Positions 5,280 through 28,045 of a DNA stretch of 32,813 bases are shown piece after piece. Position 1 is the stretch's first letter, and each line of letters begins with the position of its first letter. The translations under genes and the position numbers were made by a program. Below the pieces are notes generated by a model. That model made no database searches. It saw only the letters and a list, made by a program, of their open reading frames with translations, and had not been told where the DNA came from. The DNA lies in contig JAFAQA010000005.1 of assembly GCA_019246665.1 (NCBI GenBank), forward strand, positions 1-32,813, read 5' to 3'. This DNA comes from Hyphomicrobiales bacterium (GTDB lineage Bacteria; Pseudomonadota; Alphaproteobacteria; Rhizobiales; Beijerinckiaceae).

Positions 5280-6314
5280 ATGCTAGAGCATATCGATGGA
5301 CAGCCCGAAATGTGGCGCGCGATTGCGCATCACCCGTTAAATAGCTTGTTCTCCTCGCAGTGTTGGACGGAGGCGGTAGTCCGGACGTACGGTTTCAAGG
5401 TCTCGGCATCTATGAAAGGAGTTCAAAATGACGGCAAGGCAGACGGGGCCATCCTATATTGTCACCTCTCCGATCTGAAGGGCGAGCGGATTGTTTGCGG
5501 CCCATTTTCAGATTACTGCGATCCACTGATTAGTGATGTCGACACTTGGCGCGAGCTTGTAGCCCCGCTGATTTCCTTGGGCCTTCCGATCACGCTTCGC
5601 TGTCTTAGCAATCAATTGCCGGCAAAAGATGAGCGCTTTGTGAAGGTTAGCGAAGCGGCTTGGCACGGCATCGACATCGCTCGCCCGGAGCTTGAAATAT
5701 GGGGCGGCTTCCTGGGGGCAGCTCGTCAGAATATCAGGAAGGCTCAGCGGAGCGGCGTCAAAATCCGTGCGAGCCGCGAGCTCCATGACCTTCATGTCTT
5801 CTATGAGATGCATTGTCACATTCGAAAATCCAAATATCGTCTCCTTCCGCAGCCCTTTGTTTTTTTTGAGAACCTGCATGGTTCGTTTGCAGAAAATAAT
5901 AGCTTGACGGTTCTTCTTGCCGAGGTTGGCGGCTCTCCCGTCGCCGCCACCGTATTTCTCGAATGCGGAGGCACACTGTATTATAAGTTCAACGCCTCCT
6001 TGGAAAGCCGCCTGTGTCCCAATGACCTTCTTGTCTGGGAAGGCATCAGAATTGGACAGAGCCGTGGCCTTAAGCTGCTCGACTTTGGCGCATCCGACCT
6101 CGATCAACCCGGATTGATTCGATTTAAGCGCAAATTCGCTACGGTCGAGCGGAGAATTTTCCGGCTGCAGTTTGAGCCGGAGGGATATCCCGACCGGCGA
6201 GTCTCGGCGGTCAACAAGACTCTGAGTTCCCTTACACATTGGCTCACCGATCCGAGCGTGCCCGATCCGATCACTCAGGCCGCGGGAGCCGACCTATATG
6301 CCGTGTTCTGCTGA
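5280..6314 (+). CDS. FemAB/GNAT-like acyltransferase (BioF2-type acetyltransferase domain)
   Basis: This 344-residue soluble protein resembles the FemAB-related and CelD/BcsL group. The segment FLGAARQNIRKAQRSGVKIR (about 144-163) is the typical NxRKAxR-G helix. It is followed by a GNAT-like core: LLAEVGGSPVAATVFLECGG (about 211-230), LYYKFNASLESRLCPNDLLV and LLDFGASDLDQPGLIRFKRK. FemAB enzymes transfer aminoacyl groups to peptidoglycan. Relatives in exopolysaccharide loci, including those linked to exosortases, have unproven roles and may acylate the glycan. A strong GGGGAGG about ten bases before the ATG at 5280 supports the start. It follows the sugar transferase by about 50 bases, so the two are probably co-transcribed. 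No exosortase is seen in the window. Confidence 0.8.
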   Translation: MLEHIDGQPEMWRAIAHHPLNSLFSSQCWTEAVVRTYGFKVSASMKGVQNDGKADGAILYCHLSDLKGERIVCGPFSDYCDPLISDVDTWRELVAPLISLGLPITLRCLSNQLPAKDERFVKVSEAAWHGIDIARPELEIWGGFLGAARQNIRKAQRSGVKIRASRELHDLHVFYEMHCHIRKSKYRLLPQPFVFFENLHGSFAENNSLTVLLAEVGGSPVAATVFLECGGTLYYKFNASLESRLCPNDLLVWEGIRIGQSRGLKLLDFGASDLDQPGLIRFKRKFATVERRIFRLQFEPEGYPDRRVSAVNKTLSSLTHWLTDPSVPDPITQAAGADLYAVFC

Positions 6315-6396: not shown

Positions 6397-6570
6397 TCAG
6401 GAATTAAACAACAAAAGCGTGAGCCAGCGGAGCAGCAGGCGGAAGTTGTAGCCAGCGGGGGCGAGAACAGCATTGATGGCGTCGCCCTGGGGGTGCCAGA
6501 GATAGTTGTGGCCCATGCGGTGCTCGGCCTTGAGATGACCGATGACGGGCTCAGTGGCGGATCTAGAAGC
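6397..6570 (-). mobile_element. C-terminal remnant of an IS5-family transposase
   Basis: The reverse strand reads SATEPVIGHLKAEHRMGHNY, then LWHPQGDAINAVLAPAGYNF and RLLLRWLTLLLFNS before a stop at 6397. This is the standard C-terminal end of IS5-type transposases, including the catalytic Glu region. Nothing of the N-terminal half or of the terminal inverted repeats is visible. Its upstream edge abuts a decayed methyltransferase, so a deletion probably joined the two. The 80 bases between the FemAB-like gene and this remnant hold nothing recognisable. Confidence 0.72.
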
Positions 6571-13215: not shown

Positions 13216-13402
13216 TTGATTTGTCGGCATTCAACTTGTTCCGCGTCCGCGGTGTTGGTCTGGACATCGGGCAGATGCTTCTCCTTGGGCTGGCGGATCT
13301 CGTATTTCCAAACCAGCGTCACGATTAGTAATCACCCGGTGAAGCTCGGTGGATTCGGTGAACATCCCGAGACTGCGCGATTGCCTACTAACGGGCTAAA
13401 GG

Positions 13403-13530
13403 TCAGGCACCGAGCTTTTGGACCGAGAGCTTCGAATTCCAGGGTAGGAGTTGGTCGCGAGCCCTTGATGTTATGTCGTTGACGCGGGCGAGGAAGTCTG
13501 CGAGCCAGGCCTGAGGGTCGGACGTGCGTG
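13403..13530 (-). mobile_element. C-terminal remnant of an IS66-family transposase (TnpC)
   Basis: The reverse strand reads SDPQAWLADFLARVNDI, then RDQLLPWNSKLSVQKLGA before a stop at 13403. The DPQAWLADVLARI...LLPWN pattern is the standard end of the IS66 TnpC protein. The rest of the element and its ends are not visible. It lies in the 390-base gap where the two converging gene blocks meet. I recognise nothing else in 13216-13402 or 13531-13604. Confidence 0.72.
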
Positions 13531-13604
13531 TGGTCTACGAGGGCGCTCGCTGGGCGTTACAGGCTGCCATCCCGCTTGCTGAGCCATTTAGGGCGTCCAG
13601 CCTG

Positions 13605-15512
13605 TTAATACACGGGATGTGTACGTCGCGTTCGCCGTTTCAGACGGAGGATCCGGAGCCATTGCTCCAGCACAACGACGCTAAAAAGCATCTTGTGGTG
13701 GTCGGCCCGGCCTGTCGCGTGGTCACCCAGCATGGATTGCACCGCAGCCGGCTCCAGGAAGCAGTAGACCTCTGACTGCGGATCGGCCAGGTATTGCCGG
13801 ATCCGTCCGTCGAGGGATTGACGAAGCCACCCATCGACCACGTTCACCGCAAATCCCCGCTTCTTGCGATGGATGATTTCCGACGACAACAGCCGCTTGC
13901 TCACTTCGCGATGGAGCCACTTGCGAACGCCACGACGCACCTTGAAGGAGGCGCCCAATTGTTGGACGTGCTCGACCACTTCGCGATCGAGATAGGGTAC
14001 GCGAACCTCGAGGGAGTGCGCCATGGACAGCTTGTCGCCAAACATGAGCAACTCGTCCGGCAGCGACGAGCGCAGCTCGAGTAACTGAAAGGCGTTGAGG
14101 TCGTCCAGGTTTTCGAATGCCGGCCGGTATTCCTCCCAGCAGCGGGCCGCCACGGTGGCTTCCCCATCAGCGATCAGCTCGGGGCGAAAAAGCCCCTCCA
14201 TTGCGTTGTTCGAAACCAGTGAGAATACCTGCTGAAAACGATGAAGCCGATCGGGCTCGTGCAGCGAGTAAAGGCCACGCTTCATCGTATCGTTCCGCGG
14301 GAGGGCGCGCGCGAGTGCGGCACCGGGTGTCCGCAACCAGCCGGGCAACGCGCGCCAGGTGGCACCATAGCGCACGCCGAGGTGTCGAGTGTATCCGCCG
14401 AACAGCTCATCCGGCCCCTGGCCGATGAGCGCCACCTTAACGTTTTCACGAGCCCGCTGGCAGACAAAGTACATGGGCACGATCGACGACGAGGCGACCG
14501 GTTCCTCGAGGACGTCCACGATGCGGGGCAGGACGTCTTCAAACGTTTCCCGGGTGAGGTGAACCGCGTTGTGCTTGGCCGCGTAGGTCCGGGCCGTTTT
14601 GGCGGCATCGTCTAGCTCATCATCGGCGAACGACGATCCATACCCGACGCTGAACGTGTGCCAGTCGCGGCCATAGAAGCTCATAAGCGCGAGCAACAGG
14701 CCCGAATCCAGGCCGCCGCTGAGCAGCAATCCGAGCGGAACGTCGCTGATGAGATGCCGCTTCATCGCCGCCTTGTAGAGCTCGAGCAATCTTTCCGTCG
14801 CCTCCTCCGGGCGGGGTTGCGGGGCGAACGGCACGGGGGCGAACTGGTAGTAGCGCGAGACGTGCACCTGGCCGTTTTCGACGACGAGTTTTTCACCCGC
14901 GGCGAGCTTCTGGATGCCCTTGAAAATGGTGCGCGGGGCCGGCGTGTAGCGATAGCGTAGAAAAAGAGCGACAGCTTCGGGATCGACGCCCGGCGGCTCG
15001 CCGAGAGCAACGCAGAGCGGCCGGATCTCCGAACCAAAAGCGAGCGATCCGTTGCGGATCGCGTAATAGACCGGCTTGATGCCCATCGGATCGCGCGCCA
15101 GCAGCAGCCGGCGCTTTTTCACGTCCCAGATGGCAAGGCCGAACATACCGTTGAAGCGGTTCAGCACGGCGTCGCCCCACTGCTTGTAGCCGTGCACGAT
15201 CACCTCGGTGTCGCAGTTGGAACGAAACACGTGGCCGTGCCCCTGCAACTCCTGCCGGAGCTGCTGATAGTTGTAGATCTCCCCGTTGAAGACCACCCAC
15301 ACCGTCTGGGCTTGGTCGGACATCGGTTGGTGGCCGGCGGGTGACAGATCGATGATCGCCAGCCGACGAAAACCAAGGCCGAGATTCCCGTCCAAATGCT
15401 GGCCGGCGTCGTCGGGGCCGCGGTGGATGATCGTGCCCATCATCTCTTCGATTGTGGAAGCGCAGGCGGGCGCACCGCAGCCGAAGTTAAACTGCCCGCA
15501 GATGCCGCACAT
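13605..15512 (-). CDS. asnB: Asparagine synthase-like glutamine amidotransferase (AsnB family), copy 1
   Basis: A 635-residue class II glutamine amidotransferase fused to an ATP-pyrophosphatase synthetase domain. Cys2 of MCGICGQF is the glutaminase nucleophile. HRGPDDAGQHL (30-40), RRLAIIDLSPAGHQPM (49-64) and FNGEIYNYQQL (75-85) complete the glutaminase site. The synthetase domain has SGGLDSG (265-271), which binds ATP, and IGQGPDELFGGYTRH further on. The family transfers glutaminase-derived ammonia to an activated carboxylate. In polysaccharide loci such enzymes are thought to amidate uronic acids (WbpS-like) rather than make free asparagine. AAAGGAG eight bases before the ATG supports the start. 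It is the last gene of the minus-strand block. The symbol denotes the family only. Confidence 0.9.
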   Translation of the reverse strand: MCGICGQFNFGCGAPACASTIEEMMGTIIHRGPDDAGQHLDGNLGLGFRRLAIIDLSPAGHQPMSDQAQTVWVVFNGEIYNYQQLRQELQGHGHVFRSNCDTEVIVHGYKQWGDAVLNRFNGMFGLAIWDVKKRRLLLARDPMGIKPVYYAIRNGSLAFGSEIRPLCVALGEPPGVDPEAVALFLRYRYTPAPRTIFKGIQKLAAGEKLVVENGQVHVSRYYQFAPVPFAPQPRPEEATERLLELYKAAMKRHLISDVPLGLLLSGGLDSGLLLALMSFYGRDWHTFSVGYGSSFADDELDDAAKTARTYAAKHNAVHLTRETFEDVLPRIVDVLEEPVASSSIVPMYFVCQRARENVKVALIGQGPDELFGGYTRHLGVRYGATWRALPGWLRTPGAALARALPRNDTMKRGLYSLHEPDRLHRFQQVFSLVSNNAMEGLFRPELIADGEATVAARCWEEYRPAFENLDDLNAFQLLELRSSLPDELLMFGDKLSMAHSLEVRVPYLDREVVEHVQQLGASFKVRRGVRKWLHREVSKRLLSSEIIHRKKRGFAVNVVDGWLRQSLDGRIRQYLADPQSEVYCFLEPAAVQSMLGDHATGRADHHKMLFSVVVLEQWLRILRLKRRTRRTHPVY

Positions 15513-16102: not shown

Positions 16103-17071
16103 TCACGAAAGAATCCGCTCGTACACAGATTGTATTCGCCTTGCGACCTTTGCGAGCGCAAGCTCATCGACCGCGGCATAACCGCCGGAAAGACGCTTTC
16201 CACGGACCAGTACCTCCTTTACGGCTTCCGCGATAGGCGTCGGTTCGTCAGATACGATGTAACATCCTTCGAGCTCTTTGATTCGCTCGGCCACGTCGCC
16301 AACATCCACGGAAACTATCGGCAGGTTGCAGGCAAGAGCTTCTTTGATGATGTTCGGAGAACCCTCATGAGCGGACGTAAGGAGCAAACAATCGACGGCG
16401 TTCAGGAATTGAGCTACTTCTTGTTGAGGTCTTCTATCAAGTGTGACCAATTGGGCCGATGGATTGGATTTTCGAACCAGCTCAAAAGCGGCTTCGGCGA
16501 GCGGGTATCTCTTATAACCCCCTGCTGAGGGCCTGCCTGCAAATAGGACGTGCTGCTCGTCTTCCTTTAGACCCACTTCGCGCTTAGCGACCGTTCTGGG
16601 ATAGAAGATGTCAAAATCAACTCCATTGGAGATAATGGTCGTTGTTTTGGCGCGAAGATACTTTGCAAGGCCGGCATTCTTCGCAACGTTATGAGCTGTC
16701 GCGTACGACAATAAACAGGAGAATAGTCCGTGCAACACCCGATTAGGGAATCGATATTTTCCCCACTCGTTGCAATCTCCATAGACGTCGTTGCCCATAA
16801 AAGACACAACGAGCGGCAGGACAGTAGCCAATCTGGCAGTCCAGCCTGAATACATATAATGCGCATGAACGATGTCGTAACGTCTCGAACGCACAGCCTT
16901 CCGTACTTCGGCAATACCCTTGATATATTTTGCAATGCCAGTGCCTTTGAGCCGGCAAACGTCAACATCAATCCCAAGCCTCGTCAGCGACTCCACTTGA
17001 GTGCAGATGAAAATGCCCTCAGAAGGATTCTGTTGAGTAGGGTAGGCGCCCACAACATGCAGAACCATCAT
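16103..17071 (-). CDS. Glycosyltransferase family 4
   Basis: A short but complete-looking 322-residue GT4 enzyme. The N-terminal half has VLHVVGAYPTQQNPSEGIFI and CTQVESLTRLGIDVDVC (the typical opening of polysaccharide GT4 proteins), then DIVHAHYMYSGWTARLA (about 65-81). The C-terminal half has TIISNGVDFDIFYPR, HVLFAGRPSAGGYKRYPLAE (about 173-192) and the signature LLTSAHEGSPNIIKEALACN (about 231-250). It is slightly shorter than the usual 350-400 residues, with shortened linkers but no obvious frame break. AAGGAG nine bases upstream of the ATG supports the start, and a second ATG follows directly. Donor and acceptor are unknown. The region on its 5' side is full of decayed genes, so it probably has its own promoter. 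Confidence 0.9.
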   Translation of the reverse strand: MMVLHVVGAYPTQQNPSEGIFICTQVESLTRLGIDVDVCRLKGTGIAKYIKGIAEVRKAVRSRRYDIVHAHYMYSGWTARLATVLPLVVSFMGNDVYGDCNEWGKYRFPNRVLHGLFSCLLSYATAHNVAKNAGLAKYLRAKTTTIISNGVDFDIFYPRTVAKREVGLKEDEQHVLFAGRPSAGGYKRYPLAEAAFELVRKSNPSAQLVTLDRRPQQEVAQFLNAVDCLLLTSAHEGSPNIIKEALACNLPIVSVDVGDVAERIKELEGCYIVSDEPTPIAEAVKEVLVRGKRLSGGYAAVDELALAKVARRIQSVYERILS

Positions 17072-17135
17072 CGCGGCTTGCTCCTTGTGGCCTCCGGGAA
17101 TAACAACCCCCTGATAATACGCCGTATAACCTCGA

Positions 17136-17372
17136 TCAACCTTTTAACACTTCGATGGGGCGAGCGCCACGACCGTGCTCCTTGGCCAAGACGCGCATCC
17201 ATAACCTCAGGGAGGACGGATAGCTTGGGGCGTGTGGACTCGCATAGACATCCACGTCAAAATCGGCTTGCAGTCTTGAAATAAGCCTACGATGCCAGGT
17301 CCACGCGCGATTTTGGGGCACGACAACGGCCACATGTCGCCGCCCATCTGAGCACATTCGGCTCTCCATCAC
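17136..17372 (-). pseudogene. N-terminal fragment of an unidentified surface-glycan protein
   Basis: A 78-codon reverse frame reads AVVVPQNRAWTWHRRLISRL, then FDVDVYASPHAPSYPSSLRL and WMRVLAKE before a stop. A basic first strand followed by a TWHRRLI-x-RL helix resembles the beginning of the formyltransferase-like or inositolphosphorylceramide transferase-like proteins tentatively recognised at 10738-10880. No continuation is found downstream. The identity is a weak guess; it could also be a GT N-terminus. Bases 17072-17135 hold only the ribosome site region of the GT4 gene. Confidence 0.3.
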
Positions 17373-17587
17373 CTTGGTTCCCCGCGATCATAGACTCGCA
17401 AGTTCCGCAAACACTCCGAGAGCTCATTTTGACTTGCTATCGGTCCAGCGAAGATCTGCAAATTGAGATTAGTGTCGTGCCGATTTCTGGCATCGTCAAC
17501 GAAGCAGCCATCGGAGCGGAATATTACGGCGGATTAGAATTGTGCAGCTTTGTGAACGAGTCCGAAGATCGGGGTTTTTCGGAGTGA
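17373..17587 (+). other. Unassigned open stretch without a start codon
   Basis: A plus-strand frame is open for at least 70 codons and ends at 17587. It reads DSQVPQTLRELILTCYRSSE, then IEISVVPISGIVNEAAIGAE and LELCSFVNESEDRGFSE. Its composition is protein-like, but it has no ATG or GTG with a ribosome site and I do not recognise a family. It is most likely another gene scrap in the decayed 17.1-17.8 kb gap. Confidence 0.22.
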
Positions 17588-17589
17588 GG

Positions 17590-17800
17590 GCATATGGCGG
17601 TTTCAAGCGACAGAAGATCTTGCGCGAAGCTGGCGAATGATGCGCGCTCATGTCGTCGACAATCATGATGCCCCGGTGTCCAATCTTGAATTGCGTGGTG
17701 CGGACCGTATGCAGACTGTCATAATGAAGGGATCGACCTGAGCGAGTAAATCAGCGCGGGTAGCCGCCTCGATGTACGATCAACGTCGTCTGTGTGAATC
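17590..17800 (-). pseudogene. C-terminal remnant of a class I SAM methyltransferase (Methyltransf_24-like)
   Basis: The reverse strand reads RRLPALIYSLRSI and, after a one-base loss near 17725, YDSLHTVRTTQFKI. It continues GHRGIMIVDDM, and after another shift SFASFAQDLLSLETAICPH. Intact relatives read LLPALL--L--IDLFIHDSLHT-RTT-FE---AW--LRPGGIMIVDDID-N-AFASF. The stretch between FKI and GHRG (the AWRALRPG part) is deleted. It resembles the protein whose N-terminal two thirds survive at 6563-7111; the two pieces overlap slightly at the HDSLH motif, so they are separate decayed copies. Bases 17801-17863 hold nothing clear. Confidence 0.6.
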
Positions 17801-17863
17801 AGGAACCCACTCCAGTTGCTACGATGCAAACATGACGCCGCGCTGCAGATGATCGGCGGAGCC

Positions 17864-19033
17864 TCACGCGACCTCTCCTTTGCCTCCGAGTCCACCAAGC
17901 CGGCTGGCGATGAGCCACAACTCCGCGGCAATCGGGAGCGGGTCGTCCCATGCAGCGATGGGGCCCTCAACGTGCGGCTTCAGCGATCGCAAGTAGGGTC
18001 TGAGCGCCAGCCGACCGGCGGCTATCTCGGCTACCGACGTGGGCACGTCCGTCGACAGGCGAACCCATCGGCACCCAGGCTTGCCGCGCCCCTCGGGGAC
18101 AGGCTTCCCCATGGCGAGCAGCCAGGCGAGGTACGGGAAGTCCACGCCTGCGGCACGACCGAGAGAGTGCCATCCCCAGATCCGAGGATTGACATCGAGC
18201 AGCTTCAATTGGCCATCCCGCGGGTCACGCTGGAACTCGACCTCGACCGGCCCGGACAATCGCAGGTCCCGAAGCAGCATCTCGGCCGCCGCAACGACGT
18301 CGAGGTCCTCGATCGTTTCAACAAAGGTGCTGGCCCTTCCGAAGTCGGCCGGGAACTGGCGCGTGCGTCGGGCAGCGACGGACGCAAGGGGCCGTCCATC
18401 GCTCACAAGAGCCGCGAACGAGAAGCGCGTCTCTCCGCCGCCGGGCAACAGCTCCTGGACCATGATGAGGTCAGGATCGATCTGCGCACTGGCGGCTCGG
18501 TAGAGAGCGAGTAGCTGCTGTCGGTCGTCGACTCTCCATGCCTTTGCGTCGGTGAATGCCGAGGCGATCGGTTTGCGCGCGGGCTTGAGGATCACCGGAT
18601 AGGACAGCTCGAGCTCCTCCAACTCCTCGAGTGTGGACGGGTAGTGTGTGACAGCGCAGCCGATCCCGAGTGCTTCTGCACGGCCGTATGTCAGTCGCTT
18701 GTCGGCTGCGAACCGATGCAACTCCCACGGCGATGTCGTGAGCTTGTAGCACTCCGCAAGCTTGTCCGCCCGCTGCGCGACCAGGGATGCTGTCTCTTCC
18801 CCGCTCGGGAACAATACCCAGTCGCGCAGCCCATGCCGGTCAGCAAGGTCGATGAGGCAGGTGAGCTGCTCCTCCAGTGCCGCTGGCCACACCGTCCGTC
18901 CTGTTGCGTACCGCGACGCCCGCGCCAGCGAGAAGCGCTCTGCAGCAACCCAGACGGGGATGCCGTGGCGGCCGAGGCTCCGCACGACGCCGAGCCCGCG
19001 GTAGTCCCCGCCGATGACCAGCGCGCCGGTCAC
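17864..19033 (-). CDS. ATP-grasp domain protein (carboxylate-amine ligase-like)
   Basis: A 389-residue soluble enzyme. It begins TGALVIGGDYRGLGVVRSLG, a pre-ATP-grasp nucleotide-binding strand, followed by the segment RYATGRTVWP. The ATP-grasp domain has RFAADKRLTYGRAEALGIGC (the first lysine strand), LSYPVILKPARK (about 164-175), MVQELLPGGGETRFSFAALV (about 206-225) and the metal-binding end VEVEFQRD...LLDVNPRIWGWHSLG (about 275-305). Such enzymes join a carboxylate, via an acyl-phosphate, to an amine or other nucleophile. I chose the GTG at 19033 because it overlaps the stop of the upstream flavoprotein (GTGA), indicating translational coupling. The open frame extends 49 codons further, but only as a shadow of that gene. 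Very GC-rich compared with the neighbouring glycosyltransferases, suggesting a different origin. Confidence 0.85.
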   Translation of the reverse strand: MTGALVIGGDYRGLGVVRSLGRHGIPVWVAAERFSLARASRYATGRTVWPAALEEQLTCLIDLADRHGLRDWVLFPSGEETASLVAQRADKLAECYKLTTSPWELHRFAADKRLTYGRAEALGIGCAVTHYPSTLEELEELELSYPVILKPARKPIASAFTDAKAWRVDDRQQLLALYRAASAQIDPDLIMVQELLPGGGETRFSFAALVSDGRPLASVAARRTRQFPADFGRASTFVETIEDLDVVAAAEMLLRDLRLSGPVEVEFQRDPRDGQLKLLDVNPRIWGWHSLGRAAGVDFPYLAWLLAMGKPVPEGRGKPGCRWVRLSTDVPTSVAEIAAGRLALRPYLRSLKPHVEGPIAAWDDPLPIAAELWLIASRLGGLGGKGEVA

Positions 19034-20193
19034 CGTTGGAGGCCTTTGACGAGTGTTCTCGATGCGTACCCGCTGCCCGCAACGAACCGCAGGAGCGGGC
19101 CGTGACTCCACGCCGCAGGGGCGCCCACGATGTGGAGGCCAGGGACGGAGGTCTCGAAGCCACGGGACAGGCGGGGCCATCCTCCAACGGTGTTGATGCC
19201 CGCAAGCACTGATGGGGACAGGAATGAGTAGCGCGATAGGTCGACCCGGTAGCCCGTGGCCAGGAGCACGTGATCCACGGTGCTCTCCGTGCCATCGTTA
19301 AGGACGAGCCGCACGGCGTCGCCCATGCGGCACGCTTCCCGCACCTCCGTGTTGAGCCGGATGGGGACATCGGCGAGGCGGGGGATGAGCCAATTCGCTC
19401 CCGCTGCGCGAATAACGCGCGGTCCCAGCCGCTCCTGCGCGCGGCGAGGGAGGGCGCAGAATGCGCGCGGATGCGCGACGAGGTGGCTAACGCCGGCGGG
19501 ACCGACATCCGGCGGCGCGTACAACATCTGCTTGACCGGCCACTGCTCGTGCAACCAGGGGCGCTTGTGGAGCCACCTGACGAGGGGCGCACGCACCAGG
19601 ATGTCCACCTCAGATCCCGCCTCGTGCAGCAAGGCGGCCGACTCGAGCGCGCTCTGGCCACGGCCCACCACCGTCACCCGATGTCCGACGAACTTCCCGA
19701 GGTCGTCGTGGTCAAAGCTGTGTGAGACGAGGGTTGGGTCGAGCGAATCGAACTGGGGCGGCCTCCAGGCGAGTACTCCAACTCCCGCCGCCACGACGAC
19801 CTTCGCCGCCTCGAACTCATCACCATCCTGAGCCACCAAGCGAAACCGATCGCCGGCCCGCTCGACGGAACGGATCTCTCGGCGGTCCAGGTCCGGAGCC
19901 GCCCGCTGCTGGAACCAAAGCCCATACTCGATGAACTCGTCGGCGGTAACCGGCCGGCTGACAGGGTGGTCACGACCCGCGTCGAATGCCTCGAGCGTCA
20001 GGGGGCCGCTCCAGTCACCGATGCTACTCCCCTCGTACGGCGACCGGAGCAACATGCCCTTGGGAGTTTGCGACCTCCAGAACAGCAAGGGATCGCCGAA
20101 CACCTTTACGGAAAACCCGGCACGTCGCAGGGCTTTCGTCGTTGCAAGGCCGTACGGCCCGGCCCCAACGATCGCAACGTCAGTTTGACTCAT
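19030..20193 (-). CDS. FAD/NAD(P)-dependent oxidoreductase (flavin monooxygenase-like)
   Basis: A 387-residue two-dinucleotide-binding-domain flavoprotein. VAIVGAGPYGLATTKAL (6-22) binds FAD and VTVVGRGQSALESAALLHEA (173-192) binds NAD(P)H. LLATGYRVDL near residue 315 is the ATGY motif of flavin monooxygenases and N-hydroxylases, and GLHIVGAPAAWSHGPLLRFV near the end closes the fold. The family includes lysine/ornithine N-hydroxylases and Baeyer-Villiger enzymes; the substrate here is unknown. AAGGTG upstream of the ATG at 20193 and the MSQTDVAIVGAG start support this choice over the longer frame. Its stop overlaps the GTG of the ATP-grasp gene, so the two form a coupled pair. Base composition is very GC-rich and uniform with that partner. 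Confidence 0.86.
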   Translation of the reverse strand: MSQTDVAIVGAGPYGLATTKALRRAGFSVKVFGDPLLFWRSQTPKGMLLRSPYEGSSIGDWSGPLTLEAFDAGRDHPVSRPVTADEFIEYGLWFQQRAAPDLDRREIRSVERAGDRFRLVAQDGDEFEAAKVVVAAGVGVLAWRPPQFDSLDPTLVSHSFDHDDLGKFVGHRVTVVGRGQSALESAALLHEAGSEVDILVRAPLVRWLHKRPWLHEQWPVKQMLYAPPDVGPAGVSHLVAHPRAFCALPRRAQERLGPRVIRAAGANWLIPRLADVPIRLNTEVREACRMGDAVRLVLNDGTESTVDHVLLATGYRVDLSRYSFLSPSVLAGINTVGGWPRLSRGFETSVPGLHIVGAPAAWSHGPLLRFVAGSGYASRTLVKGLQR

Positions 20194-20431
20194 GATGCAC
20201 CTTGCGGAGCCATGCTCCGAACCATGCCGAGTCCGCTGAGGGTGCTTCCACGACCACGGCGTTCGTCTGCGCTGCAATCCTCTTCGAGGCTACGCTCATC
20301 GACTCGGCTCAATTCAAGGTCGCCCGCTCGACGCCGGCCCCTCCTGCCGAAGGCGCACTGTCCGGTCAGCGATGCGCCCTTGTGTCATGCGCTCTTCTCC
20401 TTGATGCTTCGAGGACAACTTTGATTTCTCC

Positions 20432-20640
20432 TCACAGACCACTCGTCTTGACGAGCAGCTCATGTCGGTCGGCATCGTCCGGGACATAGATCCTGCGCAA
20501 CTGAAGAGCGGTGTCTTTTTTCGTATTGAACCCGCGATCGCCGCTCAACGCGCAGCTGTAACCCAAACGTAGCTCGCGTTCGGAAAAGTCGCCGTTTGGA
20601 TAGCCCAGCGCATGCACCTCGTGTCCAAGCTTTTTCGGAA
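20432..20640 (-). pseudogene. C-terminal remnant of a CE4 polysaccharide deacetylase
   Basis: The reverse strand reads LGHEVHALGYPNGDFSEREL, then GYSCALSGDRGFNTKKDTAL and LRRIYVPDDADRHELLVKTSGL to a stop at 20432. The A-x-YPNGD motif is CE4 motif 3 (xYPxGxY). The CA-x-T-x-xG-N region and the RR-x-x-VPDDA ending are typical of rhizobial exopolysaccharide deacetylases. The N-terminal catalytic half is absent; its place is taken by a decayed GT4 start. Bases 20300-20431, between this stop and the flavoprotein, hold nothing clear. Confidence 0.72.
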
Positions 20641-20938
20641 GATCTGACCTTGATTCTGCGATCTCCGTGTACCGTGATGACGAGCGGCGCCCGCAACCGA
20701 AAAGTTGCAGGATATGCCGAATAACCGTAATGCGCTTGGACGATGTCGTATGCCACCGCGCTCGTCATTCGCATGACATCAAGAGTGCATCTCAGATAGT
20801 TCATCCTTGACTGGAAGCTGAGAATATTGATGACGTCGACCGTGTAGCCGGCGCAGCTGCTCTTGCGGCTGGCACACGCAGGGTCCGTGGCTCGGTCTCT
20901 GGGGACTGGGATGCATATCGGTGACAGAGGATCCTCAC
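20641..20938 (-). pseudogene. N-terminal remnant of a GT4 glycosyltransferase
   Basis: Starting at a GTG at 20938, the reverse strand gives a GT4 opening (VRILC, then TDMHPSPQRP after a one-base loss). In another frame it continues GYTVDVINILSFQSRMNYLR, AYDIVQAHYGYSAYPATFRL and RAPLVITVHGD. The VDV...SRLNYLR...YDIVHAHYGYS pattern is shared with the intact GT4 at 16103-17071. The donor domain is missing and the frame passes into the deacetylase tail at about 20640. It lies directly downstream of the amidotransferase stop at 20953. Confidence 0.72.
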
Positions 20939-20952
20939 GATCCTGCGTTCCC

Positions 20953-22929
20953 TCAGCACTCGGCAGGAATTGCCATCGCATTACTGGCCTGCGTCGGCCG
21001 CCCGTGCAGTTGCTGCGCCCACTGTCTTCGCCACGCCTCGAAGGAAAGAAGGGTCCATAGCTCGGATCCATAATTCTTTTCCCCCGAGATATGCTTCCGC
21101 CAAATCTCTTGCGCCGGCTTTACGTCGAGGATCCCACCGCCGTATCTGGCGGGCGCCAGCAGGTCCTCGGCCCAATCGCGTAACGGTACTCTGAGCCATT
21201 CGTCGATGGGGACACCGAATCCCATCTTCGGCCGTTCGACCAAATGGCGAGGAACGAAACGATCGAGGACGCGTCGCAGCAGCCACTTCGTCTCTCCGTT
21301 CCGCACCAAAAACCGTGGCGGAAGGCGCCACGCAAATTCGACAATCCTATGGTCCAGGAGTGGCGGACGCGCCTCCAAGGCTACGGCCATTGACGCCCGA
21401 TCGACCTTCTGCAGTATGTCGTCCGGAAGATAGGTAACTGTGTCGAGAAAACGAGCGCGGTCCAAAACGGCAAGTCCTGGTGGCGCCCCTCCCAGCCCAG
21501 GCGGATTTTCCCGATCAGTCATGTGAAGCCCCACATCCGGAATCTGGCTGACAAGCCGAGTGTGAAACCCATCAGAATCCAGCGACAGCATATAAGACAG
21601 TTTTCGCACCTTATCTCCAAGTCGTTCGGGAACCATAGCGCCACGAAAGAGGTGCGATAAATGATTTAAGGGGGCGGGTGGCAAGGCGCGCAACATGGCA
21701 CCGGCGGCTTCCCGAAACCGAATAGGCACCGAGCCGGCGTATTGCCAGAACCGCGTCAAAATTTTGTACGTGTCGTAGCCGGCGAACAGTTCATCGCCGC
21801 CGTCGCCGGACAATGCTACGGTGACGTGACTTCGCGTCAGCTTCGACACAAGAAAAGTCGGTATTTGCGAAGAATCTGCCAATGGCTCGTCATACATTTC
21901 AGGGACCAGAGGTACCGTCGCAAGCGCATCAGCGGCCGTAATGACCAGTTCCGAATGTACACTCCCTATGTGATGAGCAACACGGGCAGCATGCGTCGAC
22001 TCGTCGTATCCGAGGTCGGGAAAACCAATCGAAAACGTACGGACCGGCCCTTTCCCAGCTGCAACCATTAACGCCGCAATTGAAGAGGAATCGATGCCTC
22101 CTGACAAAAAAGCGCCCAGCGGCACATCGGAAATCATTTGCCTGCTGACCGCATCGGCGAGCAGCGACGAAAACATTTCTATTGCCTCTGGGTCGCCAAC
22201 TTCCAGCGGCGCTTCGAAGCCTTGTGCGACGGCGTCTTCTAAGCGCCAATACCGCGACCGGGAAATCCGCCCATTGACGCCAATCGATACGATCTCACCC
22301 GGCATCACCTTCTCGATGCCGCCCAATATCGCGCCCGGTGCCCGAACGTAACCAAATTTGAGATAACAGCTTACCGCTGCCGCATCTATCTCCCTTGGCA
22401 CAAACCCCAGTCTCAGCAAGGCCTTTATCTCCGATCCAAACGCTATCTTTCCTCCATGGAAGGTAAAGAACAGGGGTTTAATTCCAAGTCGATCGCGTAC
22501 GAGATGCAGCACCCGCTCTCGTCGATCCCAAAGTGCTATCGCGTACATGCCGTTGAGCGACTTTATAGCCGCCGTTATTCCTTTACTTGCAACGGACTCG
22601 ACCAGAACCTCTGTGTCCGAACGACCGCGCCAATTGACCACGGCAACACTCGGCTCCCGACGAATTTCTTCCGTATTGTATATTTCGCCGTTGTAGCTCA
22701 CGACCCAGCGCCCATCTGCCGACACCATGGGCTGCGCTCCGGCCTCACTGAGGTCAATTATGGCAAGTCGCCGGTGTGAGATCGCGACGCCAATCGCTGC
22801 ATCAATCCACACCCCCTCGCCGTCTGGTCCGCGATGCGCAATTGCATTCGCCATATCGCGCGCCGAACGTTGCAAGGCCTCCGGCCGCGCAGCGAGACAA
22901 GGGTCGATCAAACCTGCAATCCCGCACAT
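20953..22929 (-). CDS. asnB: Asparagine synthase-like glutamine amidotransferase (AsnB family), copy 2
   Basis: A 658-residue two-domain amidotransferase. Cys2 in MCGIAGLIDP is the glutaminase nucleophile. AHRGPDGEGVW (31-41), SHRRLAIIDLSEAGAQPM (51-68), SYNGEIYN (78-85) and RSDTEVLVE (103-111) complete the glutaminase domain. SGGIDSSS (276-283) is the ATP-pyrophosphatase loop of the synthetase domain, and ALSGDGGDELFAGYDTY comes further on. I chose the ATG at 22929 because Cys2 must become the N-terminus after Met removal and GGGGAT lies upstream; the open frame extends 16 codons further. It is clearly distinct from the copy at 13605 in sequence and in linker lengths, so the two may amidate different carboxylates. 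It follows the GT4 gene by about 70 bases. The symbol denotes the family only. Confidence 0.9.
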   Translation of the reverse strand: MCGIAGLIDPCLAARPEALQRSARDMANAIAHRGPDGEGVWIDAAIGVAISHRRLAIIDLSEAGAQPMVSADGRWVVSYNGEIYNTEEIRREPSVAVVNWRGRSDTEVLVESVASKGITAAIKSLNGMYAIALWDRRERVLHLVRDRLGIKPLFFTFHGGKIAFGSEIKALLRLGFVPREIDAAAVSCYLKFGYVRAPGAILGGIEKVMPGEIVSIGVNGRISRSRYWRLEDAVAQGFEAPLEVGDPEAIEMFSSLLADAVSRQMISDVPLGAFLSGGIDSSSIAALMVAAGKGPVRTFSIGFPDLGYDESTHAARVAHHIGSVHSELVITAADALATVPLVPEMYDEPLADSSQIPTFLVSKLTRSHVTVALSGDGGDELFAGYDTYKILTRFWQYAGSVPIRFREAAGAMLRALPPAPLNHLSHLFRGAMVPERLGDKVRKLSYMLSLDSDGFHTRLVSQIPDVGLHMTDRENPPGLGGAPPGLAVLDRARFLDTVTYLPDDILQKVDRASMAVALEARPPLLDHRIVEFAWRLPPRFLVRNGETKWLLRRVLDRFVPRHLVERPKMGFGVPIDEWLRVPLRDWAEDLLAPARYGGGILDVKPAQEIWRKHISGEKNYGSELWTLLSFEAWRRQWAQQLHGRPTQASNAMAIPAEC

Positions 22930-22998: not shown

Positions 22999-24138
22999 TC
23001 AAACTTCAAAAGAACGCGCCCTATTCCCGCTTGCCAATCGCCGAAACAGCTCGACGTGCTTCTGCACCATTTGCTCAATCCCGAACTTCTGCTCCACGAG
23101 CGCCCGCCCTGCGCGACCGAACGCGCTTCCAATGTGAGGACTGTCGACAATTTCCCTTATCCGAAGCGCCAGCGCATTTTCATCTCCCAATGGAATTAGG
23201 AATCCATTCTCTCCGTCCCTGACAATTTCGCGATTGCCCGCCGCGTCCGTGGCTATGACCGGCTTTTCCAGTGCCATGTACTCCATAATTACATTAGCTA
23301 TTCCCTCCCCATATTCGCTTACCAACACTCCGACGGAAAACGTTTTTACAATTTCTTCGACTCGTTTTCTGACTCCTAAAATGCGTATATTCGACTGACC
23401 ATCGCTAAAACGCACCCTGAAGCTTTCCAGGTCCGGTCCTTCGCCCACAGCAACGAATGTAATATCCGTCCGCTCATCGCACAGCAATTTTGCCGCTTTA
23501 AAAAACGTGCTATAATCCCTCTCTCGATGGAATCGTCCGACCATGCCGACGACGTGTTTGGTTCTTATATCCAACGAACACTTGACGTCGTCGACCTCTG
23601 GAAGATTATTTAATCGATCAAAATTAAAACCGTTTCGTATACAAAGACCCTTTTTGCCATTAACTCTAAAAGATCTAAGTCCCGCTAGTGAATTGGCCAA
23701 TATTACAGTTGAAAATGGAGCTGTCATAAGTAAACGCCGGTAGCCGCGATCTTTCAGATTCAAAAACAGCGGTGCGTTTTGTATCATCCCGTTGATCAAA
23801 GCCGATCTGAATATCAACGCAATTGGTGACGCATACACTGAACACATCGACTCCCACGAATAAATTATATTCGGTCGGTATTGTCTCGCCAGCCAATATA
23901 GTTTTTTGAGAATACGAAAATCCCATTTCCGGCTTCTTCTGAATATGTGTATTTTTATTCCCAGCGATCTTACCTCATCGTAGTGTATGACATCTGAAAG
24001 GACGACGAGTTCGTTGATGAACCCATCTATTTTGTTGAACCCGCGCAGCAATTCAACCAGTTGTCGCTCCTTCCCTCCGGAGGCCAACGTGTCCGTTATA
24101 TGCAATATCCTGATCGCGGAACTTGACGAATTCATCAT
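22999..24138 (-). CDS. Glycosyltransferase family 4
   Basis: A 379-residue GT-B enzyme. It opens IRILHITDTLASGGKERQLV (9-28), the glycine-rich loop of GT4. The middle has YRPNIIYSWESMCSVYA and LCIRNGFNFDRLN. The donor domain has HVVGMVGRFHRERDYSTFFK (about 194-213), FVAVGEGPDLESFRV and the signature VSEYGEGIANVIMEYMALEK (about 278-297). It probably acts on the lipid-linked repeat unit at the cytoplasmic face. This gene is noticeably more AT-rich than all its neighbours on the same strand, suggesting separate acquisition. Two ATG codons in tandem begin the frame. A short GT-like scrap lies immediately upstream. Confidence 0.9.
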   Translation of the reverse strand: MMNSSSSAIRILHITDTLASGGKERQLVELLRGFNKIDGFINELVVLSDVIHYDEVRSLGIKIHIFRRSRKWDFRILKKLYWLARQYRPNIIYSWESMCSVYASPIALIFRSALINGMIQNAPLFLNLKDRGYRRLLMTAPFSTVILANSLAGLRSFRVNGKKGLCIRNGFNFDRLNNLPEVDDVKCSLDIRTKHVVGMVGRFHRERDYSTFFKAAKLLCDERTDITFVAVGEGPDLESFRVRFSDGQSNIRILGVRKRVEEIVKTFSVGVLVSEYGEGIANVIMEYMALEKPVIATDAAGNREIVRDGENGFLIPLGDENALALRIREIVDSPHIGSAFGRAGRALVEQKFGIEQMVQKHVELFRRLASGNRARSFEV

Positions 24139-24266: not shown

Positions 24267-25013
24267 CTAGTCTACGCCGGTAGTCGCTTTGACCCGCCGG
24301 CGGATCCCCGCCGGGACACCCATCACGAGTGCACCGTCGGGCACGTCCTTCGTCACCACCGCGCCAGCGCCAACGACGGCGTCAACGCCAATTCTGACGC
24401 CTGGCAATAGGTTAGCTCCCACTCCGATCGCCGCGCCGCGCGCGATATGGGGCCCGAGCATGGTCGAACCGCCGTAGCCGTCGCGGCCGATCGCATTATC
24501 GTTTGAAGTGCCGACACAGCCCGAGATGAACACGTCGTCTTCGATCGTCATATTGCCCGCCAGCCAGGTGTGATCCTGCACCCGAACGCGATCCCCGATT
24601 CGCGTGTTGTAATTGACTGTGACGTAACGTCCGATGACAGTCTTCGCGCCGATCCGCGATTGTTCACGGATCGAGGCGCCGTCACCAATCAGAGTCCCCG
24701 CGCCGAGCGAGACGCCGTAAAAAATCACCGCGTGAGGTCCGATAGAACAATCGGCGCCGATATCGACCCATGCCTCGAAACGCGGCGCGCGCGACAACGC
24801 ACCGGCCCCCTTCGGCGGCTTGCCGATATAGGCTCCTGGAAAGATTTCGACGTTGTCCCTGACTATTGCGCCGCTCTCGATCACGACATGCGGGTGAATG
24901 ACCACCCCGTTGCCAATCGTAACATCAGGCCGCACGACGGCGAACTCGGCAATCGCCACGCGCGCACCGATCGCCTCGGTCTCGACCACCGCCCATGCGC
25001 TGATTCGATTCAT
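24267..25013 (-). CDS. Left-handed beta-helix (hexapeptide repeat) acyltransferase
   Basis: A 248-residue protein made almost wholly of hexapeptide repeats ([LIV]-G-x4). Examples are VAIAEFAVVRPDVTIGNGVV at the N-terminus, VDIGADCSIGPHAVIFYGVS in the middle, and AAIGVGANLLPGVRIGVDAV followed by VTKDVPDGALVMGVPAGIRR, the standard ending of sugar N-/O-acetyltransferases. It likely transfers an acyl group from acyl-CoA to an aminosugar. Following the oxidoreductase and aminotransferase genes, it could be the WbpD-like acetylation step, although it is longer than typical WbpD. I chose the ATG at 25013: it overlaps the stop of the aminotransferase (ATGA), indicating translational coupling. The longer open frame is a shadow of that gene. 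Confidence 0.87.
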   Translation of the reverse strand: MNRISAWAVVETEAIGARVAIAEFAVVRPDVTIGNGVVIHPHVVIESGAIVRDNVEIFPGAYIGKPPKGAGALSRAPRFEAWVDIGADCSIGPHAVIFYGVSLGAGTLIGDGASIREQSRIGAKTVIGRYVTVNYNTRIGDRVRVQDHTWLAGNMTIEDDVFISGCVGTSNDNAIGRDGYGGSTMLGPHIARGAAIGVGANLLPGVRIGVDAVVGAGAVVTKDVPDGALVMGVPAGIRRRVKATTGVD

Positions 25014-26188
25014 GGCCAAGCCTTTGCGACATCGGCGGGGAGCGCTGTGCCCGAATACGATGACACCTGCAATTCCTTGTGACCGTCCCGCTCGGCCGCA
25101 GCGCGCGCAATCGCGGCGATATGGCGCGCCTGGTCGCGTCCGAGCTCGGCGAACATGGGTAGGGACAATGATCGATCGGCCATCGCTTCGCAGCACGGCA
25201 AGTCGCCCCGCCTGTAGCCGAGATGGGAGAGAGCAGGCTGTAGATGGAGCGGCAATGGATAGTGGATCCCGGTCGCCACGCCGGCTTCCTCGAGCTTACT
25301 TTGCATTGCGTCCCGCTCGTTCGTGGCGATCACATACAAATGGTAGACGTGCGTCGACCCCCGTCGGACGAACGGCGTCTTGATCCTCGACTGCGCCAAC
25401 TCTGCGGCGTACCACTCGGCGGCGCGCCGCCGATTGGCATTCCATTCATCCAGGCGCTGGAGCTTGATCTGCAGGACTGCCGCCTGGAGGGTGTCGAGCC
25501 GGCTGTTGAACCCGATCTCGGCGTGCTTGTAGTGGGTTGTTCGACCGTGGTCGCGCAGACGTTCGATCCGCTCGGCAATCGCGGCACTGTTGGTGGTGAC
25601 CGCTCCGCCGTCACCATAGGCCCCGAGGTTCTTTGCCGGATAAAACGAAAAGCATGCAGCATCGCCGAGTGACCCAGTTCGGCCCCCCTGATATTCCGCC
25701 CCGTGCGCCTGGGCCGCGTCCTCTACTACATAGAGGGCGCGCCGCCGTGCGATGTCTTTGATCGGATCCATATCAGCCGGCTGGCCGAAGAGGTGGACTG
25801 GGACGATCGCTCTCGTACGAGGCGTTAGGGCGCGCTCGATCATCGTGGGATCGATCGTGTAGGTGTCTGGATCGATATCGACGAACACGGGCCGCGCTCC
25901 CGTCGCAACGATGGCGGCCGCGGTGGCGATGAAGGTATTGGCGGTTGTAATTACCTCGTCGCCACGTCCAATGCCCAAGGCCCGCAGCGCCAGATGAAGC
26001 GCGTCCGTGCCGTTGGCCACACCGAGCGCATAGCGTACCTGGCAATACGCGGCGAAATCTCTTTCGAACGAGACAACTGCCTCGCCACCGATGAACCGCG
26101 CGGAATCGAGAATGCCCCGAATTGCTTCGGCCACCTCGTCCTTCAGCGTCTCATATTGCGCTTTGAGATCGACGAACGGAATGTGCAT
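25010..26188 (-). CDS. DegT/DnrJ/EryC1/StrS-family sugar aminotransferase
   Basis: A 392-residue PLP-dependent aminotransferase that converts a keto-sugar nucleotide to an amino-sugar. It opens MHIPFVDLKAQYETLKDEV, the usual family start. It has GVANGTDALHLALRALG (56-72), EVITTANTFIATAAAI (78-93), VVEDAAQAHGAEYQG (154-168) and SFYPAKNLGAYGDGGA (181-196), with Lys186 the expected PLP lysine. GIHYPLPLHLQPA lies near the end. AAGG upstream of the ATG at 26188 supports this start. An ATG at 26233 that overlaps the sugar transferase stop is an alternative and would add 15 residues. Its neighbours suggest a WbpE-like role after the Gfo/Idh/MocA dehydrogenase. The product sugar is not defined by the sequence. 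Confidence 0.92.
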   Translation of the reverse strand: MHIPFVDLKAQYETLKDEVAEAIRGILDSARFIGGEAVVSFERDFAAYCQVRYALGVANGTDALHLALRALGIGRGDEVITTANTFIATAAAIVATGARPVFVDIDPDTYTIDPTMIERALTPRTRAIVPVHLFGQPADMDPIKDIARRRALYVVEDAAQAHGAEYQGGRTGSLGDAACFSFYPAKNLGAYGDGGAVTTNSAAIAERIERLRDHGRTTHYKHAEIGFNSRLDTLQAAVLQIKLQRLDEWNANRRRAAEWYAAELAQSRIKTPFVRRGSTHVYHLYVIATNERDAMQSKLEEAGVATGIHYPLPLHLQPALSHLGYRRGDLPCCEAMADRSLSLPMFAELGRDQARHIAAIARAAAERDGHKELQVSSYSGTALPADVAKAWP

Positions 26189-26229: not shown

Positions 26230-26946
26230 TCATCGGGCGCCGCGCCGCCGCAGCACCGCGGGAAATGTCAGGGCAATCAACTTCAGGTCGATCCATAACG
26301 TCCAGTTCATTGCATACTCGACATCCATCTCGAGCATCACGTCGGGGCCGAGGCGACCCCTGCCGCGCACCTGCCAAATTCCTGTCATTCCGGGCCTCAC
26401 CACGTGACGCTTATGGTGCCAGTCTCGGAAGTATTCGAGTTCATAAGGAATTGCCGGCCGTGGACCGACGATGCTCATTTCGCCCCGCAATACATTGACG
26501 AGTTGCGGCAGCTCGTCGAGGCTGGTTCTCCGCAGCCGCCGCCCCACGCGCGTGATGCGAGAATCGTCCGTCAGTTTGTATGGAGCATCGGGGTCGTCCG
26601 AGAGCGGCTCCTTCGCCCAAAGCCGCCGGATCGCCTCTCGGTGGATGCTATCGTGGGCGTTGTGGCGGAGCGTCCGGAATTTGAAGCAGTTGAACGGCTT
26701 CTCGTCTCGCCCGATCCGACGTTGCCGAAAGACCGCGGGTCCGGGGCTGTCGAGACGGATTGCTATTGACACCATCATGAGGACGGGCGCCAGCAGCACG
26801 ATCGCGAGAACGCTGATCGCGACATCAAGCGCCCGTTTGCCGAATTCCCGCGCGATCGCCCTCCGTCGAGTGGTTTCATGCGGCGGCAATTTCGGGACCT
26901 CCCACCGACACGTTCCCCCGCCGAAAAGTCGGTTGATGCTTATCAT
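26230..26946 (-). CDS. Initiating sugar transferase, second copy (ExoY/PssA-type)
   Basis: A 238-residue undecaprenyl-phosphate sugar-phosphotransferase of the short form. The anchor helix is at about 40-66 ([20 protein letters not shown]). The catalytic part follows with [54 protein letters not shown] and [17 protein letters not shown]. The ATG at 26946 overlaps the oxidoreductase by 71 bases and lacks a ribosome site. A TTG at 26889 preceded by GGGAGG may be the true start, giving 219 residues. It sits between the dehydrogenase and aminotransferase genes, which suggests that the aminosugar they make is the first sugar of a repeat unit. That is an inference. Confidence 0.91.
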
Positions 26947-28045
26947 TGCTACGGTGTTTGTGGTTGCGCCGTAGACACGCCGATGCCGCCTCGAGCGCTG
27001 CTACAACGCGCAGCCCACGCAATCCATCCGCGAGCGGCCGTTTCCCCGTCATGATCGCGTTCACGAAGTCGAGCACCTCGAGTTTCAGCGGTTCGCTGTT
27101 GGATATTGCGGGGATGTGAACGTCGCCATGATGATACGCCGACTGGAAGTCCGCGTAGGAGTCGCCATCGATCCGCGGCCTGAAGCGCTTTTGGTAAACG
27201 CGCACTTTCTCGGACGGCTGCACGTCGTCGAACACCAGCATCGCATTGCTTCCGACGATCGTGATCTGGCGCACCTTGACTGGGTCTAACCAGGAAACAT
27301 GCACATGAGCGGCCACGCCGCTCTTGAACCCCATCTTGGCGTAAACAACGTCCTCAACGTCGGGCAGGACGTGCGCGCAACCCCAGGCGCCGATGCTTTG
27401 CGCCCGCTCTTCCAGCAGGGAGAAGATGATCGAGAGATCGTGCGGCGCCAAGTCCCAAAGGACATTGGCGTCCTGCCGGTAGAGACCGAGATTCAGGCGC
27501 CGCGAATCAATGTAGTAAAGCTCGCCTAGAGAGCCGCTCTGGATCATCTGGCGCATAAAACACACCGCCGGGTGATATTCGAACGTGTGCCCGACCATCA
27601 GCACACGCTTGCGCTGTTCGGCGATCGCATTCAACTCGCGGCATTGCGCGCTCGTCATGGCCAGCGGCTTCTCGACAAGCGCGTGCTTTCCGGCCTGGAG
27701 AACCGCGCGCGCCAGTTCAAAATGCGTCACCACAGGTGTGGCGACGATGACCCCGTCTATAGACGGGTTATTCAGTATCGCGTCGACATCACGCGTAACA
27801 GCGACAGTGGGATATTGTGAATGGATATATTCCAATCTGTCAGGGCGCGGGTCGGCGGCCATTGACACCCTTGCGTCGCGTATGTCGCAGCTGACACGGA
27901 TGTGTTTAGCACCCCAGTAGCCGCAACCGATTACGGCGAGCAGCGGGCCGTCCTTTGCGGTCTGAATCTCCGCGTCCTCGGTTTGGTTCGGAGTATCGAA
28001 AAAAAGGGGGACAGGTTTGGAATGCAGTACCTTCGAACGAGACAT
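26876..28045 (-). CDS. Gfo/Idh/MocA-family oxidoreductase (WbpB/WlbA-like sugar-nucleotide dehydrogenase)
   Basis: A 389-residue NAD(P)-dependent dehydrogenase. The Rossmann motif [16 protein letters not shown] is at 35-50, and [20 protein letters not shown] follows at about 99. The family's catalytic EKPLAM is at 125-130, with a second block [20 protein letters not shown] nearby and [10 protein letters not shown] carrying the conserved His-Asp. WbpB-type relatives oxidise C3 of UDP-sugars to a ketone that a DegT aminotransferase then aminates. Both partner genes follow here. The residues before the Rossmann domain (1-33) are longer than usual. GGGAGGGAG just before the ATG at 28045 is a very strong ribosome binding site. 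A 169-base gap separates it from wzz, so it may have its own promoter. Confidence 0.91.

Follow-up and report, generated by a model that had tools for sequence, protein, structure and literature searches.

Among the described pathways of surface-glycan synthesis, the nearest in logic to the locus analyzed here is the Wbp/Vim linking-sugar pathway of Porphyromonas gingivalis and Tannerella forsythia in which, according to the part of the published account available to us (PMC7468200), the Wbp enzymes, the amidotransferase WbpS, a putative CE4 deacetylase and a FemAB-family transferase together yield an N-aminoacyl uronamide. Counterparts of the Gfo/Idh, DegT, hexapeptide, WbpS-like AsnB and FemAB/GNAT components of this pathway are present in the window, that is, the whole stretch of 32,813 nucleotides that was analyzed, which is part of a 4.86-Mb draft genome that is 93% complete (Table 1). 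The homologs of WbpB, WbpE and WbpD are recognizable at the domain level only, below the equivalog cut-offs; nor do the scores of the AsnB, FemAB or Gfo/Idh proteins reach the curated cut-offs. In particular, the WbpS-type model TIGR03108 scores 487 and 517 bits on the two AsnB-like proteins, against a cut-off of 817, and the FemAB model TIGR03019 scores 45.7 bits on the VimA-like protein, against a cut-off of 260. A Pfam scan of 14 window proteins revealed no counterpart of the VimE-type CE4 deacetylase of the Wbp/Vim pathway, nor any other deacetylase, and no WbpA UDP-GlcNAc 6-dehydrogenase was seen among the Pfam-scanned window proteins either. An open reading frame on the margin of the polysaccharide locus (508-2259, 584 aa) was suggested by eye to encode a CE4 deacetylase; neither Pfam nor hhalign nor a search of PDB sequences supports this assignment, and the protein lacks any match in Pfam, in NCBIfam or among PDB sequences. 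The window also shares FemAB-like and eps_aminotran_1-like genes with the exopolysaccharide loci of the XrtA/PEP-CTERM type, again with family scores under the cut-off; a search of the draft genome (93% complete) with the exosortase model PF09721 gave no match at E 0.001.

Where the locus departs from the Wbp/Vim pathway is in a pair of adjacent genes, encoding a flavin-dependent oxygenase-like protein (FMO) and an ATP-grasp ligase, that lie between the two asnB-like genes inside the surface-polysaccharide locus; no such pair is described in the part of PMC7468200 available to us. Judging by titles and abstract openings, we found no description of the pair in glycan loci elsewhere in the literature. 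Here, we describe this pair as a conserved two-gene module that has been recruited into glycan loci in several phyla.

The locus and its Bradyrhizobium-type relatives

The preliminary description of this DNA reported the two genes as translationally coupled, and the observation is real: both are open reading frames on the minus strand, the oxygenase gene coming first, with intact cofactor motifs and a GTGA overlap that is confirmed in the sequence and recurs, with the same 4 bases, in the annotation of a Bradyrhizobium barranii plasmid. Elsewhere among the near relatives, a gap that ranges from tens of bases to a few hundred usually lies between the two genes, so that the overlap belongs to the Bradyrhizobium-type copies. 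Beyond the genes already mentioned, the locus of the pair includes sugar-transferase, glycosyltransferase and Wzy-like genes. The gene scraps that were noticed around the pair are also there, in the form of a GT4 relic and, between the ATP-grasp gene and the glycosyltransferase gene, an insertion of approximately 720 bp that holds a scrap open reading frame (17136-17372) and is missing from both B. centrolobii and the B. barranii plasmid. The GT4 relic is matched by B. centrolobii as well (L026, 5927-6460) and is mostly deleted in the plasmid. Elsewhere in the window, a short segment (6420-6552) matches rhizobial plasmids, in one of them under a transposase annotation, and is probably an IS relic.

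Table 1. Positions of the pair and of the neighboring features in the window
Feature	Position	Strand	Basis
FemAB-like/GNAT transferase (VimA-like)	5280..6314	+	Acetyltransf_6 1.5e-13; TIGR03019 4.4e-12, under cut-off; 87% identical to the pBb323S2a orthologue
AsnB-like amidotransferase 1 (WbpS-like)	13605..15512	-	TIGR03108 1.1e-145, under cut-off
GT4 glycosyltransferase	16103..17071	-	Glyco_trans_1_4 8.6e-12; syntenic in L026, L043
Insertion of ~720 bp, with scrap ORF	17101..17821	-	blastn blocks, edges approximate
ATP-grasp ligase gene	17864..19033	-	GTG start, 389 aa; start overlaps oxygenase stop (GTGA)
NAD(P)H/FAD oxygenase-like gene (class B FMO / N-hydroxylating monooxygenase fold)	19030..20193	-	ATG start, 387 aa
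GT4 glycosyltransferase relic, upstream of the pair	20197..20952	-	frame-broken blastx matches to the GT4 gene 16103-17071 and its relatives
AsnB-like amidotransferase 2 (WbpS-like)	20953..22929	-	TIGR03108 8.5e-155, under cut-off
GT4 glycosyltransferase	22999..24138	-	Glyco_trans_1_4 9.6e-28
Hexapeptide acyltransferase (WbpD/NeuD-like)	24267..25016	-	Hexapep 7.2e-26; NeuD_NnaD 1.9e-33, under cut-off
DegT/DnrJ aminotransferase (WbpE-like)	25010..26170	-	PF01041 1.3e-125
Sugar transferase (initiating enzyme)	26230..26946	-	synteny with the annotated sugar transferase of pBb323S2a
Gfo/Idh oxidoreductase (WbpB-like)	26876..28045	-	PF01408 8.3e-26; best NCBIfam model UDP-GlcNAc 3-dehydrogenase 1.9e-45, under cut-off

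The same locus was found on the conjugative plasmid pBb323S2a of B. barranii 323S2 and on one contig of B. centrolobii, and from these matches we take the source of the window to be a probable relative of Bradyrhizobium. The plasmid matches 56% of window positions 1-24900 at 90.3% DNA identity, the two proteins of the pair are 92% and 96% identical to those of the plasmid and 95% and 97% identical to those of B. centrolobii, and the gene order around the pair, including its placement between two asnB genes, is identical in both relatives. Orthologues of the FemAB-like protein (87% identity), Wzy, Wzx, one glycosyltransferase and the second sugar transferase are encoded approximately 3-30 kb away in pBb323S2a. 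No ATP-grasp match was found at E 1e-20 in the three congeners examined. An attempt to gauge the age of the transfer against the core genome was dropped: a 15-kb contig piece of the window's genome gave long matches of 78-86% in congeners but only short ones in B. centrolobii (approximately 64-89% among the matches listed), which left the comparison unusable for dating.

The pair was also said to be of foreign composition, and part of this stands, namely that it is GC-rich (66.7%, compared with 58.4% across the window and 62.5% in a sample of 17 contigs of the same genome, with one all-N contig left out of the mean). The excess resides in codon positions 1 and 2; GC3, calculated for the longest open reading frames, is 0.76-0.78 and thus no different from that of the neighboring AsnB gene 13605-15512 (0.778), so that foreignness is unreadable from composition alone, and composition was ruled out as proof of it. 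A horizontal origin is supported instead by the phylogenetic trees described below.

Folds and motifs of the two proteins

The oxygenase-like protein matches Pyr_redox_2 (9.8e-18), Pyr_redox_3 (3.5e-16) and Lys_Orn_oxgnase (2.8e-8) in Pfam, and an alignment with 15 relatives shows that the GAGPxG, GxGxSA and TGY motifs are invariant (G11, G13, G16; G178, G180, S182, A183; T314, G315, Y316), so the assignment to this family with intact cofactor motifs held up. The FAD-binding GxGxxG, NADPH-binding GxGxSA and ATGY-type motifs are all present, and are common also to other class B flavin monooxygenases. In these motifs and in the near-full-length fold, the protein resembles the N-hydroxylating monooxygenases of the PvdA, SidA, DesB and RhbE type, from which it differs in that no siderophore gene was recognized beside the pair and the structural score is tied with that of SMFMO-type enzymes. 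Specifically, with a structural model of moderate quality (pLDDT 69.5), Foldseek places PvdA, SsDesB and SidA on top, and VIA-align gives a Z score of 24.3 for SsDesB (6xbb; rmsd 4.0, 333 residues aligned), tied with 23.8 for a flavin-containing monooxygenase (4usr; rmsd 3.6, 316 residues aligned); YpdA reductases are close behind (Z 23.2). Sequence profiles place ferredoxin-NADP and thioredoxin reductase-type proteins first among the PDB matches, and the best NCBIfam model is YpdA. By hhalign, the protein matches an IucD/RhbE-like protein of Sinorhizobium meliloti (98.2%, E 3.7e-14), with poor alignment of the middle (substrate) region; the amine-substrate residues of SidA are K107, N293 and N323. 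The match to Lys_Orn_oxgnase (PF13434) was discarded as proof of N-hydroxylation because the same genome contains five such matches, and 12 of 14 control genomes have them too.

The second protein matches ATPgrasp_Ter in Pfam (3.3e-9), its K112, K150 and N282-P-R284 are invariant or at least 90% conserved, and the AF2 model is good (pLDDT 89.5), with structural matches at Z 24-27 to ATP-grasp enzymes including L-amino acid ligase 3vot and PylC, and further matches to PurK and biotin carboxylases; the initial assignment to the ATP-grasp enzymes is thus supported, and the ATP-binding residues are intact. The fold, the ATP-binding lysines and the NPR motif are shared with the L-amino acid ligase BL00235 (3vot), PylC (4ffl) and the carbamoyl-phosphate-synthase-like protein 2pn1, from which the ligase of the pair is distant in sequence (16-21% identity in Foldseek).

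Conservation of the pair, its genomic context and phylogeny

Searches with the oxygenase covered 149 relatives, 385 genomes of the class, 398 of the phylum, 297 in the phylum of an Acidobacteria bacterium (L027) and 201 in the phylum of a Chloroflexi bacterium (L030), and at E < 1e-25 yielded matches in 6/385, 4/398, 7/297 and 22/201 genomes of the last four sets, respectively, counts that take in the genome of the window or of the seed. When the loci were scored with the profile, 48 rows had a score > 300, 47 of them distinct (L106 coincides with L083 and was removed; L071, L072 and L074, repeats of L027, L028 and L030, were removed before the count), of which 38 came from the oxygenase searches; this number omits the window (L044), L026-L031, L043 and L073, which were not found via the open oxygenase search. 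Close relatives that are not independent within the survey are L091-L096 and L089/L090.

An ATP-grasp match was found no farther than 600 bp from the oxygenase in 27 of the 38 loci and within the 1.5-kb flank in 32, the additional five (L048, L050, L066, L081, L099) lying beyond 600 bp and within approximately 1.2 kb, and the inclusion of G1248, in which one gene separates the two, raises the count to 33, all these figures being favored by the fact that some of the loci counted had also served to train both HMMs. The 32 flank matches comprise 21 at 2e-36 or better and 11 weak ones (E 4e-15 to 7e-5). No ATP-grasp match was present in the flank of the other five loci (L070, L076, L077, L097 and L100, the last one at a contig end), two of which (L077, L097) have a match approximately 7-8 kb away in the larger regions. 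Among the 36 rows with a match within 600 bp, the ATP-grasp gene is downstream on the same strand in 27, upstream on the same strand in seven and on the other strand in two. Adjacency was found in one of six lower-scoring oxygenase relatives and was not observed beside any of 12 more distant FMO-like loci used as a control; the pair was likewise absent from 20 control regions of 19 kb that were taken from other parts of 20 of these genomes. The FMO neighbors in G839 and G915 were considered as divergent ATP-grasps and ruled out, given that there is no similarity. The conserved adjacency of the two families, which the preliminary description proposed as a check, is thus supported.

Glycosyltransferase, deacetylase or FemAB-like genes lie beside many of the near relatives. 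Among 20 Chloroflexi-type loci, of which several are short contigs, the genes recorded were FemAB (6), deacetylase c6 (7) and c17 (4), GT families (8 and 12), Gfo/Idh (6), DegT (4) and AsnB (0). When 20 FMO regions were compared with 20 control regions, FemAB was found in 3 versus 0, deacetylase c6 in 4 versus 0, c17 in 3 versus 0 and GT4 c2 in 6 versus 0, all of these being small numbers and biased upward because some of the loci under test had contributed to the context HMMs; Gfo/Idh (3 versus 2) and DegT (3 versus 1) hardly exceed the control, the sugar transferase was seen in 2 versus 1, and AsnB in none of either set. FemAB is also encoded near the pair in the acidobacterial loci L027 and L031. 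In the Chloroflexi-type FMO/ATP-grasp loci, two further protein clusters recur (L108 14109-15116 in 7/20; L105 4336-5850 in 5/20), the scanned members of which have no Pfam match. The distant alphaproteobacterial pairs, for which the comparison was with the window genes, mostly have no match to the glycan genes tested, the exception being G152 (L132), with a sugar transferase and a c17 deacetylase approximately 7 kb away. Thus, the polysaccharide context that was read from this one locus extends to many near relatives, with little sign of it around the distant pairs, and the suggested co-occurrence with FemAB-like genes is seen in part of the near relatives.

The further suggestion, that the pair forms an amide-forming module with the two AsnB-like amidotransferases, is not supported: AsnB is encoded in none of 32 FMO-centered regions outside the Bradyrhizobium-type locus, and the link does not generalize. 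The AsnB-like genes that do occur near relatives lie beside FMO-less ATP-grasp genes (L003, 43-46%, a partial match; L041, 25%, a weak one). ATP-grasp relatives with 32-41% identity are found in sugar-transferase loci, with no FMO in the DNA examined (L033-L036, L038, L040); Pfam confirms a deacetylase in L036 and FemAB in L033, and Wzc-like genes were noticed by eye in these loci. At E 1e-15, neither the genome of L033 nor that of L041 has a match to the FMO.

Both maximum-likelihood trees place the Bradyrhizobium pair, within a well-supported group, mainly among Chloroflexota and Acidobacteriota. In the oxygenase tree, the group otherwise consists of seven Chloroflexi-type and two Acidobacteria rows (fork 98/97), and 12 of the 13 other rows from the same class fall outside of it or, in the case of L069, beside it as an outer branch only. 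In the ATP-grasp tree, the group includes six Chloroflexi-type, two Acidobacteria, one FMO-less Acidobacteria and two rows from the window's order (fork 100/97), and three of the five other same-class rows are outside, this tree leaving out rows that score 80 or less, most of them alphaproteobacterial. This nesting fits transfer of the two genes as a unit, and the pair was probably acquired horizontally in this way.

Possible functions of the pair

We propose, with about even confidence, that the pair is a horizontally acquired two-enzyme cassette that was built into a surface-glycan pathway to which it contributes oxygenation and amide coupling. The Gfo/Idh, DegT and hexapeptide enzymes would produce a UDP-2,3-diamino sugar (a uronic acid, provided that a 6-dehydrogenase is supplied from elsewhere), the carboxylate of which the WbpS-like AsnB enzymes would amidate, and the FemAB-like enzyme would attach an aminoacyl group; the flavin enzyme might then act on the amine-bearing substituent, or on the precursor of this substituent, by adding oxygen to a nitrogen or to some other soft atom, and the ATP-grasp enzyme could activate a carboxylate with ATP and couple it to an amine, giving an oxidized, amide-linked decoration. 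The single shared pathway, the order of the steps, the chemistry and the substrates of the pair are what we infer, and the N-hydroxy or oxidized aminoacyl product that was envisaged from the start is accordingly put forward here as a conjecture of the same kind. As a class, flavin N-hydroxylating enzymes accept amino sugars as well as amino acids, according to the part of the source available to us (PMC7347517). A more specific version, in which the FMO N-hydroxylates an amino sugar or an aminoacyl amine and the ATP-grasp acylates it, so that hydroxamates or other N-oxygenated amides are placed on the surface polysaccharide to make a metal-binding glycan, with the cassette moving between phyla and, among rhizobia, via conjugative plasmids, strikes us as a long shot.

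The pair might, instead, make a diffusible small molecule, such as an oxidized amino acid or dipeptide, and be merely located in a polysaccharide island. The scarcity of glycan context around the distant homologous pairs speaks for this, as do the clusters of other-fold oxygenases with ATP-grasp peptide ligases that, in the part of PMC2922099 available to us, are predicted to yield exported metabolites; we nevertheless find it rather unlikely, given the many near relatives beside glycosyltransferases, deacetylases or FemAB genes and the exact place between two asnB genes that the pair keeps in two Bradyrhizobium relatives. Unlikely, too, in our estimate, is that the flavin protein is a reductase or oxidase rather than a monooxygenase, the pair then making an ordinary, non-oxygenated glycan amide. 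The reductase-type proteins that lead the profile matches, the YpdA model and the occurrence of the ATP-grasp family in glycan loci with no FMO in the DNA examined would all agree with such a role, whereas Foldseek puts the N-hydroxylases first, VIA-align ties these with the SMFMO type, albeit with YpdA close, and the match to the IucD/RhbE-like profile and the invariant TGY point to a monooxygenase. Finally, the GT4 relic and the insertion that flank the pair on either side, together with the methyltransferase of the plasmid locus that is not seen in the window, could be taken to mean that the pair is a decaying passenger without current function; the intact reading frames, the 92-97% protein identity to two relatives and the retained motifs make this very improbable.

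If the cassette reading is correct, an oxygenation and amide-coupling step is added to the known aminoacyl-uronamide glycan pathways, two uncharacterized protein families acquire a role at once, and the plasmid-borne case in B. barranii, a soybean isolate, makes the unusual surface chemistry testable. In this plasmid (L043 19317-20084), a Methyltransf_24 methyltransferase is encoded between asnB and a BNR-repeat protein, in the place of which the window has only approximately 390 bp (13216-13604). The BNR/Sortilin-type repeat protein of the window itself (10948-13215), the counterpart of which is annotated in the plasmid as belonging to the sialidase family, looks like a secreted glycan hydrolase.
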